Origin: Leptolyngbya sp. FACHB-8
GTDB taxonomy: Bacteria; Cyanobacteriota; Cyanobacteriia; Elainellales; Elainellaceae
Direction: 5' to 3'
Assembly (NCBI RefSeq): GCF_014695575.1
Contig: NZ_JACJOO010000064.1
Span: 1 to 64,000 of the forward strand
Length of the DNA: 64,000 nucleotides
Positions 4,314-62,317 of this stretch are shown piece after piece (the stretch's first letter is position 1; every line of letters starts with the position of its first letter). The translations under genes were made by a program, and so were the position numbers. Under the pieces are notes generated by a model. The model was given only the letters and a program-made list of their open reading frames with translations, ran no database searches and had not been told where the DNA came from.

Positions 4314-4408
4314 TATAGCAATGTGCAAGTGCGTTAAGTATAACAACGGTGGTGTGGGGCACTTCGTGCCCCACACCACCGTACTTAATCAACATGCACA
4401 GCGCTATA
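4314..4408. repeat. Hairpin element, family A copy 1
   Basis: The ends read TATAGC...GCTATA. A 17-bp perfect core hairpin lies at 4346-4382 with loop TTC. The flanks (GTGCAAGTGCGTTAAGT on the left, ACTTAATCAAC on the right) recur at 62223-62317 in the same orientation and, more divergent and inverted, at 8546-8640. Confidence 0.85.
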
Positions 4409-16293: not shown

Positions 16294-16340
16294 GACCCGA
16301 GATGGTATGAGGGACAAGGGATCTGTTGCCTACTGGAGGT

Positions 16341-16424
16341 GGGCAATTTTCGGGCTTCAAAGCCGAGAGTGTACGCCGGTCGGGTGTATGCTCTCGGCTT
16401 TGAAGCCCATAATGAGAATTGCTG
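16341..16424. repeat. Hairpin element, family G relic
   Basis: The right terminal repeat TGAGAATTGCTG (16413-16424) is identical to that of the complete element at 44012-44143; the left one is degraded (GGGCAATTTTCG). The core arms at 16352-16409 pair over about 18 bp. It sits eight bases from the mug stop codon. No target duplication remains visible. Confidence 0.75.
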
Positions 16425-42759: not shown

Positions 42760-43722
42760 TTAAGCTCCTAAAGACGCCAGTTCGCGGATGACCACTTCGG
42801 GCGATCGCGGCTGCCAACCTAACTCCCGTATAGCCTTACTTCCATCGACACGCACACAGCGATCGTATAGATAATGCACCCGCTCCTTACTGATCGGCGG
42901 TTGCCACTTCAGCACACGGCCAATGGGATCAAGCAGATTACCCACGATCCGCACCACCGGAGGAGGCATTTCGGCGGGGGCAGCGAGTTGGTTAGCTTCA
43001 CCCACAATCTGGAACATTTCACGGGTTGTCATTTCCCCAGCCGAGGCAATGTAGTGAGCACCTGACGGAGCTTTTTCGATCGCCAGCAGCATCAGATCGA
43101 CGAGATCATCGACGTGAACAATGCCGGTGATGCGATCGCCTCCCGCCCATACCTTCAACTTGCCACTGCGAAAGGCCTGAAGCACTGGGCCAAAGTGCGG
43201 GTCATCTGGCCCAAAGATACCCGAGGGCATCACACTCACCACCGAAAAGCCTTCCGCTACCGCCTGATCCACCAACTGCTGCGCCTTGTACTTCGTGGAA
43301 TCGTAGGCCGACGAAAAATCTTTTTGAGTCCGCTGAAAGGTTTCGTCAATCACTCGACCCTGGGTATCACCGTAAACCCCAATCGTGCTGCAATAGAGCA
43401 TCTTTTGTACCTGAGCCGCTCGGGCTGCCGCCAGCACGTTAGCGGTCCCCTGCACATTCACCCGCTCCATACGAGCTGCATCCACAACGCCCAACTCCAC
43501 ATAGGCAGCGACGTGGAATACCCAATCAATGCCGCTCATGGCTTGCTTCACCGCATCGGTATCGGTTACATCCCCATAGGCAAACTCTACGGGCAGCCCT
43601 TCCAGCCGGGATAGGTCACTGGTCTTGCGCACCAATGCCACCACTGTATGCCCACGATCAATCAAAGCTTTGACCAGATGGGAGCCTGTAAATCCATTCG
43701 CCCCTGTAACCAGTGCTCTCAT
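42760..43722 (-). CDS. NAD-dependent epimerase/dehydratase (extended SDR)
   Basis: 320 aa from ATG 43722. The Rossmann motif VTGANGFTGSHLV (residues 4-16), the catalytic YDSTKYKAQ (YxxxK type) and CSTIGVYGD are all in place. The sequence resembles HpnA-type sugar epimerases and dihydroflavonol-reductase-like SDRs; no hopanoid genes lie beside it, so I leave the substrate open. A longer frame to 43809 exists but lacks family character. Confidence 0.82.
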   Translation of the reverse strand: MRALVTGANGFTGSHLVKALIDRGHTVVALVRKTSDLSRLEGLPVEFAYGDVTDTDAVKQAMSGIDWVFHVAAYVELGVVDAARMERVNVQGTANVLAAARAAQVQKMLYCSTIGVYGDTQGRVIDETFQRTQKDFSSAYDSTKYKAQQLVDQAVAEGFSVVSVMPSGIFGPDDPHFGPVLQAFRSGKLKVWAGGDRITGIVHVDDLVDLMLLAIEKAPSGAHYIASAGEMTTREMFQIVGEANQLAAPAEMPPPVVRIVGNLLDPIGRVLKWQPPISKERVHYLYDRCVRVDGSKAIRELGWQPRSPEVVIRELASLGA

Positions 43723-43865
43723 GGCTGTATCCAAACTGTTGAACAAGACAGAATCATTGTATCGCCCGTTATTAACGCCATTTTGAGCCAGGGATGCTTC
43801 TGAGGGCAATGCAATGTGCCACCTTCAAAAACTCTCTAAACTAAATTTCTATTTCCAAGAAGATA

Positions 43866-43932: not shown

Positions 43933-44178
43933 CAGCTCTTTTTCCCCTGATGAAGCCGTTGCTAGTGGGAGATGAGGTGGAAGACTACAGTTTTCCACCT
44001 CATCTCCCACTCAGCAATTCTCATTTTGAAATCAGGCCCGAAAACCGCGCGCTAAAGGCGCGCGGTTTTCGGGCACCAAAGCCAAGAGTTCACGCCCGTA
44101 GGGTGTGAACTCTTGGCTTTGGTGCCCATACTGAGAATTGCTGTCTCCCACTAGCAACGTCCTTATGAAAAAGAGCTG
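43933..44178. repeat. Outer hairpin disrupted by inner MITE
   Basis: CAGCTCTTTTTC at 43933-43944 is matched by GAAAAAGAGCTG at 44167-44178. The inner left arm 43957-43982 pairs with 43993-44011 and, after skipping the inserted element, with 44153-44159, giving a perfect 26-bp stem. The outer hairpin therefore existed before the inner element entered. Confidence 0.85.
44012..44143. mobile_element. Complete hairpin MITE, family G
   Basis: 132 bp. Perfect 12-bp terminal inverted repeats CAGCAATTCTCA and TGAGAATTGCTG. Direct repeats TCTCCCACT lie exactly outside (44003-44011 and 44144-44152), a 9-bp target duplication. Inside are two hairpins: CCGAAAACCGCGCGC/GCGCGCGGTTTTCGG (44038-44071) and GGGCACCAAAGCC.AGAGTT paired with its complement ending 44127. 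No ORF, so non-autonomous. Confidence 0.9.
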
Positions 44179-44207: not shown

Positions 44208-46130
44208 ATGCGATCGCCCATGTCCTCCCCTTCCACTGTCGAATTTCAAGATTGTTTTGATGTCATCGTCGTTGGTGCGGGTCACTCTGGCTGTGAGGCG
44301 GCACTCGCGTCGGCGCGGTTGGGATGCCGCACCCTCCTGCTCACCCTCAATCTGGACAAGATCGCCTGGCAGCCCTGCAATCCGGCAGTCGGGGGGCCAG
44401 CGAAGTCGCAGTTGACCCACGAGGTAGATGCTTTGGGAGGCGAAATCGGCAAGATGGCCGATCGCACTTACCTGCAAAAGCGGGTGCTGAATATATCGCG
44501 AGGCCCTGCGGTATGGGCATTGCGAGCACAGACCGACAAGCGCGAATACGCCGCCATCATGAAGGGGATTATCGAGAACCAGCCCAACTTGATGGTGCGG
44601 GAAAGTATGGTAACCGACCTGGTCTTGGGCAAGAACGACGAAATCATTGGGGTAGAAACCTACTTCGGCGTTGCCTTCGGCTGCAAAGCTGTGATTTTGA
44701 CCACCGGGACATTTCTGGGCGGACGCATCTGGGTTGGCAACAAGTCGATGGCAGCTGGACGAGCCGGGGAATTCGCCGCCGAAGGACTAACGGAAACCCT
44801 GAATCAGATCGGGTTTGAAGTCGGGCGCTTAAAAACAGGAACTCCAGCCCGGGTGGATCGGCGCTCAGTCGATTACACCGCCATGGAGTTGCAACCCGGT
44901 GATGAGGATGTGCGCTGGTTCAGCTTTGATCCGGAGGTCTGGGTAGAGCGGGAGCAGATGCCGTGCTATTTAACCCGCACGACAGCAGAAACTCACCGCC
45001 TGATTCGGGAAAACCTGCACATGTCTCCGGTCTATGGGGGTTGGGTTGATGCCAAGGGGCCACGCTACTGCCCCAGTATTGAAGACAAAATTGTACGGTT
45101 CGTCGATAAGGATTCTCACCAAATCTTCATTGAGCCAGAAGGACGGGATAGCCCAGAACTCTACATCCAGGGGTTCTCCACCGGGTTGCCCGAAAACCTA
45201 CAGTTGCAGATGTTGCGATCGCTCCCCGGCCTCGAAAACTGCATTATGCTACGCCCTGCCTATGCCGTGGAGTACGATTACATTCCGGCTACCCAGTGCT
45301 ACCCCACGCTAATGACGAAGAAAGTAGAGGGGCTATTCTGTGCCGGACAAATTAATGGCACCACTGGCTACGAAGAAGCCGCGGCTCAGGGCTTAGTAGC
45401 AGGCATTAACGCCGTACGCTTTGCCCAGGGCCAAGAGATGATCGTCTTTCCCCGTGAGCAGAGCTATATCGGCACGCTCATCGACGACCTGTGCACAAAG
45501 GATTTGCGGGAACCGTATCGGATGCTAACCTCACGATCCGAGTATCGGCTTATTCTGCGCTCCGACAATGCCGATCAGCGGCTCACCCCTCTGGGCCGCG
45601 AGATTGGCCTGATTGACGATCGCCGCTGGGATTTGTATACCCAGAAGCAGGAGGCGATCGCGGCTGAAAAAGAACGCCTTCACAGCACCCGCGTTAAACA
45701 ACACGATGCGATCGGTCAACAGATCGTGGAGGATACTCAGCAAGCAATCAAAGGTTCGATTACGCTGGCCGATTTACTGCGTCGTCCCGGTTTCCACTAC
45801 GGCAACCTGACACATTACGGATTAGGCAATGCATCCCTGAACCGGGAGGAACGGGATGGCGTCGAAATTGAAATTAAATATTCCGGATACTTACAACGGC
45901 AGCAGAATCAGATCGACCAGATCAGCCGCCAGGCAAACCGTCCCCTCCCCGCAGATCTGGATTACCACACCATCGACACTCTTTCTAAGGAGTCGCGTGA
46001 GAAGCTGGCAGCAGTACGGCCCCTGACCATTGGTCAGGCCGCACGTATTGGTGGCGTGAATCCAGCCGATATTAACGCGCTGCTCCTACATCTAGAGATC
46101 AGCGCTCGCCGAAAAGCCGCAGCAGTTTAG
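44208..46130 (+). CDS. mnmG: tRNA uridine 5-carboxymethylaminomethyl enzyme MnmG
   Basis: 640 aa, the usual MnmG/GidA length. The FAD motif [14 protein letters not shown] is near residue 22, followed by [13 protein letters not shown] and the conserved [17 protein letters not shown]. With MnmE it makes the cmnm5 group at U34 of certain tRNAs. Start ATG 44208 or ATG 44220. The ATG is only 29 bp after the nested hairpin cluster 43933-44178, so the promoter must lie within or very near those repeats, a possible effect of the insertion on expression. Confidence 0.94.
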
Positions 46131-62222: not shown

Positions 62223-62317
62223 TATAGCAATGTGCAAGTGCGTTAAGTGCAGAAACGGTGGTGTGGGGCACGAAGTGCCCCACACCACCGTACTTAATCA
62301 ACGTGCACAGCGCTATG
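62223..62317. repeat. Hairpin element, family A copy 3
   Basis: Flanks and 17-bp core arms nearly identical with the copy at 4314-4408 and in the same orientation, but the loop is GAA (62272-62274) where copy 1 has TTC. The core is thus inverted relative to the flanks. Confidence 0.88.

Follow-up and report, generated by a model that had tools for sequence, protein, structure and literature searches.

Organization of the locus

The window, i.e., the whole 64,000-nucleotide stretch of Leptolyngbya sp. FACHB-8 DNA analysed here, carries at 42760-43809, on the minus strand, what is presumably an NAD-dependent epimerase-like gene and, at 44208-46130, divergently from it, a gene that we take to be mnmG; both were named by sequence recognition. 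A composite structure occupies the intergenic gap between the two genes. It consists of a mini-transposon (MITE), located upstream of mnmG, that interrupts one arm of a hairpin. The features of the locus, along with a relic of the same family found elsewhere in the window, are the following:

44012-44143, plus strand: MITE, 132 bp, without a gene (from the sequence and the genome copies)
44012-44023, plus strand: left terminal inverted repeat, CAGCAATTCTCA
44132-44143, minus strand: right terminal inverted repeat
44003-44011, plus strand: 9-bp target duplication, copy 1, TCTCCCACT
44144-44152, plus strand: 9-bp target duplication, copy 2
44036-44074, no strand: internal hairpin 1; its loop (44054-44056) is AAA here and TTT, AAA, TTC or GAA in other copies
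44071-44127, no strand: internal hairpin 2; its loop (44098-44100) is GTA here and TAC, GTA, GAA, TTC, GTC or GAC in other copies
43957-43982, plus strand: left arm (26 bp) of the outer hairpin, an older, single-copy hairpin
43993-44011, plus strand: first 19 bp of the right outer-hairpin arm, which the insertion splits here
44153-44159, plus strand: last 7 bp of the right outer-hairpin arm, pushed away by the inserted MITE
about 16338-16424, minus strand: truncated relic of the MITE family, with the right end and hairpin 2 kept

The terminal inverted repeats, read directly from the sequence, are perfect over 12 bp, and TCTCCCACT is present twice, directly flanking them. A 132-bp inner element with such ends and a 9-bp duplication had been described in a sequence-only reading of this DNA, and the description is confirmed. 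Also correct was the recognition of two different hairpins inside the element, which overlap by four bases. No ORF of at least 100 aa overlaps 44012-44143, and the MITE, folded as single-stranded DNA, reaches -61.9 kcal/mol (z = -14). The relic, previously placed at 16341-16424, is real, lies on the opposite strand and is truncated: one arm of hairpin 1 also survives, but neither the left end nor the other arm does.

The segment 43957-43982 is, by computation, the exact reverse complement of the joined segments 43993-44011 and 44153-44159 (26 bp). Excision of the MITE and of one duplicate restores a perfect outer stem, as the same reading had stated, and the exact duplication of TCTCCCACT combined with the exact restoration of the arm identifies this arm as the target of the MITE. 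Beyond the 26 bp, the outer stem extends outward with imperfect pairing (AGCTCTTTTTC / GAAAAAGAGCT).

The MITE family in the genome

The surveyed genome comprises 6.93 Mb in 95 contigs, and the counts given below derive from searches and from retrieved DNA stretches. The exact 12-mer end occurs 263 times genome-wide (134 + 129), against 0 for the reversed pattern used as a control, and elements featuring two exact ends 94–124 bp apart number 75, again against 0 in the control. The structure observed at 44003-44159 is therefore far beyond chance. Other copies with matching ends and 9-bp duplications, on which the mobility of the element had been said to depend, are plentiful. Among about 97 delimited copies, i.e., those that could be bounded in retrieved DNA, the 9-bp duplication is perfect in 69 and conserved at 8 of 9 positions in 18. 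The most frequent length is 132 bp; shorter forms of 82–89 bp have a single hairpin. Most sites (84/92) lie outside crude ORFs. The family is a non-autonomous, parasitic mini-transposon, of which Leptolyngbya sp. FACHB-8 carries about a hundred copies.

Some copies are inserted beside resident ones. Six pairs lie end to end, 8–9 bp apart, and one additional copy sits within the end of a resident copy, whereas roughly estimated chance expectation is 0.06 events. MITE copies tend to land 8–9 bp from the end of a resident copy, far above chance. All five adjacent pairs with a clear orientation are arranged head to tail. As complete partners differ in sequence, the members of a pair seem to have arrived independently, the later one within or next to an older duplication. 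Adjacent or nested copies are found on stretches L089, L104, L110, L117, L026, L030 and L120.

Origin of the nested insertion

The MITE at 44012-44143 very probably results from a transposition into the arm of a pre-existing hairpin. This degree of confidence covers the insertion of the MITE only, and the cause of the loop flips described below falls outside it. That no insertion took place, the composite being ancestral as a unit or the palindrome having grown later, has a negligible probability. An orthologous empty site was not found in the one same-genus genome compared, which has no MITE and in which the shared neighbour adjoins a different gene, so that synteny is missing; yet both the exact duplication and arm restoration at 44003-44159 and the presence, at dozens of unrelated sites, of copies with these ends and with such duplications speak for insertion. 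A preference of the MITE for hairpins or palindromic DNA is very improbable as well. Although 6 of the 92 sites, the present one included, fall inside hairpins with arms of at least 12 bp, 77 of 1092 intergenic control points (7.05%) do the same, which is the level expected by chance, and special targeting of hairpin arms finds no support in these figures. An enrichment in hairpins suggested by a control based on nearby points is gone when intergenic controls are used, nearby points being diluted by coding DNA.

Long hairpins (arms of at least 14 bp) number 26 in the window (1-64000) and none in Markov-shuffled controls, and are therefore a common feature of this genome; many of those in the window are perfect, with 25–36-bp arms and 3-base loops. 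Insertion into a hairpin arm is the outcome expected of near-random intergenic insertion in a genome where long hairpins recur at intervals of about 2.5 kb. Because hairpin sites are hit at the control frequency, the nested insertion is one of at least six alike, and no targeting rule is needed. The outer hairpin itself has no second copy in the genome at the sensitivity used and no flanking duplication. The broader proposal that hairpin elements move is consequently not supported for this hairpin.

The parent insertion sequence

No autonomous copy of the parent insertion sequence (IS) was found in the Leptolyngbya sp. FACHB-8 genome, where only a 25-codon relic is present; contig ends bearing the terminal inverted repeat carry MITE sequence and no IS sequence. 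An IS with the ends of the MITE and a 9-bp duplication, the search for which had been proposed from the sequence, does exist in relatives, and is about 1.42 kb long. One full IS of 1420 bp, in which both ends match, was identified in a related cyanobacterium, this copy having one in-frame stop. Full-length copies are found in Arthrospira PCC 9108 (1418 bp), Leptolyngbya PCC 7375 (1404–1405 bp), Pseudanabaena, Laspinema and Desulfoferrobacter (1602 bp). In all five taxa, they feature the same ends as the MITE and 9- or 10-bp duplications. Full-length ISs with CAGCAATTCTCA ends and the MITE have in common ends of 12–17 bp and a duplication of 9 bp (sometimes 10); the ISs measure 1.40–1.60 kb and encode a transposase, whereas the MITE has their ends only. 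Arthrospira also hosts two 141-bp MITEs with the same IS ends. MITEs with these ends in other genera (L199-L206, L355-L357) are often about 128–133 bp long and have unrelated interiors, and some likewise carry two hairpins; their length seems to be under constraint.

Relatives of the transposase occur in at least 80 loci, mostly in cyanobacteria, but also in Desulfobacterota, Chloroflexota and other groups. The predicted structure (pLDDT 86) has the Tn5 transposase as its best PDB match (E 6.5e-11), and the closest fold to that of the modelled protein is the Tn5-like DDE fold. Residues D127, D217 and E336/E338, which are invariant across 20 homologues, are putative catalytic residues of an RNase H-like DDE transposase. 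Tn5 likewise generates 9-bp duplications. Despite the match to the fold of the Tn5/IS50 transposase (IS4 superfamily), identity is about 15%, and IS4-type models of both Pfam (DDE_Tnp_1, 19.1 vs a cut-off of 23) and NCBIfam (21.7 vs a cut-off of 152) score below their thresholds; for this reason, the parent IS is not filed as an IS4 member. A 48% identical homologue in Gloeothece verrucosa PCC 7822 is annotated as ‘ISNCY family transposase’. A homologue of the transposase (39% identity) from Campylobacterota (L270) is located between CAGCAATTATAACTCTA ends, a related end sequence that has been altered. In several multicopy ISs (L221, L224, L262), including Arthrospira PCC 9108 copies, the transposase frame is broken about halfway, possibly reflecting frameshifting or decay.

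We propose that the transposase of the parent IS, supplied in trans, would have excised the MITE and integrated it at a 9-bp staggered cut in the arm of the outer hairpin, and that the IS may since have been lost from the genome. As only the 25-codon relic is left, the MITE is probably stranded in Leptolyngbya sp. FACHB-8, unless it is served by another transposase.

Loop inversion in the MITE hairpins

The loops of the two internal hairpins were compared in 82 full-length copies, all from one assembly, the difference between the two ends giving the orientation of each copy. Loop 1 reads TTT in 23 copies, AAA in 22, TTC in 19 and GAA in 13; loop 2 reads GTA in 27, TAC in 22, GAA in 9, TTC in 8, GTC in 7 and GAC in 4. 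The two orientations split 42:35 for loop 1 and 34:43 for loop 2. The two loops are independent of each other (Fisher p = 1), and the four main combinations of loop 1 and loop 2 are found in 11, 10, 10 and 9 copies. In near-identical copies, the loop 1 sequences differ at 3 bases in 119 pairs, at none in 85, at 1 in 22 and at 2 in 3. Loop orientation looks repeatedly scrambled in this family, close to a coin toss and apparently saturated. In 24 pairs of copies that are identical in the other 126 bases, loop 1 is the same in 11 and flipped in 11, and loop 2 is the same in 13 and flipped in 7. Since otherwise identical pairs are already mixed, each hairpin appears to invert faster than the rest of the MITE accumulates point mutations. 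In other genera, related MITEs differ in their stems and likewise show a GCA/TGC loop in both orientations.

Evidence for loop flipping was limited to elements with asymmetric ends. Dispersed non-MITE hairpins of the genome (42 pairs flipped vs 34 the same) were left out, since reading a lone palindrome from the opposite strand is enough to make it seem flipped. In the window, the same hairpin with 17-bp arms is found at 4346-4382 and 62255-62291 with TTC and GAA loops, respectively, and with the same right flank, ACTTAATC; the two probably differ by a loop flip that took place outside the MITE.

Changes in the stems are frequently paired. Compensated two-sided changes affect 27 of the 45 stem base pairs and none of those in the 12-bp ends, and 95–98% of the stem cells pair. 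Selection acting on an RNA made from the MITE, such as a terminator or a regulatory hairpin, would account for this degree of pairing, and hairpin 1, in which a GC stem is set between an A-tract and a T-tract, could terminate transcription on both strands. Such selection is nevertheless unlikely. Broken pairs are A-C in 66 cells and G-T in 45, although selection on RNA would spare G-U; A-C breaks being no rarer fits arm repair at the DNA level, a count that is support short of proof, as mismatch cells in related copies are non-independent. Moreover, the loops flip freely, all Rfam matches are below threshold and were treated as due to chance, and a promoter and terminator scan of the locus found nothing. 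It is quite unlikely, too, that each loop orientation represents an old lineage, the two having been mixed by recombination between copies with no repeated inversion. Such recombination does occur, as one copy (L104:1264) seems to combine two subfamilies; however, old lineages are at odds with the flips seen in pairs identical at 126 positions (11/24 and 7/24), with the presence, at similar frequency, of the reverse complement of each loop (TTT and TTC; TAC, TTC and GAC), and with the occurrence of both orientations in relatives.

A DNA polymerase that changes template from one arm to the other, or the resolution of an extruded cruciform, is the likely cause of the flips, rather than selection on RNA. 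More tentatively, the inversion rate of the MITE hairpins may exceed the point mutation rate of the whole element, perhaps reaching one event per round of transposition or replication through a cruciform- or hairpin-processing step.

Discussion

Bacterial MITEs have been reviewed, with Nezha among the cyanobacterial examples (PMC10969869), and have been described in Anabaena sp. 90 (PMC3542288). Like bacterial MITEs in general, the element reported here is short and gene-free, has inverted ends and target duplications, is present in many copies, is mostly intergenic and features a strong secondary structure. In contrast to these, it combines a parent IS missing from the genome with two separate hairpins, the loops of which flip.

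Template switching is known to produce loop inversion and arm homogenisation in rRNA and microRNA hairpins (PMC8794818) and in yeast genes (PMC8604942). Replacement of the loop by its reverse complement and joint changes in the arms are shared with the MITE hairpins. The described cases are rare events, e.g., 69 loop-only inversions in rRNA trees (PMC8794818), whereas in the MITE family the orientation is scrambled over about 80 copies of one element.

The nested insertion per se is textbook transposition, and the record of loop inversions is the part worth following up. A large burst of an orphan MITE is now linked to a Tn5-like IS absent from the host. Two near-perfect hairpins, comparable across about 80 copies, make loop inversion and arm repair countable. 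Inversions are usually deduced from single rare events and look saturated here; hence, how fast and by what mechanism hairpins invert in a bacterium can be tested. If inversion does outpace mutation, perfect hairpins in genomes of this kind would all act as switches with two states, at equilibrium, and the MITE family would be a ready-made reporter of hairpin inversion.
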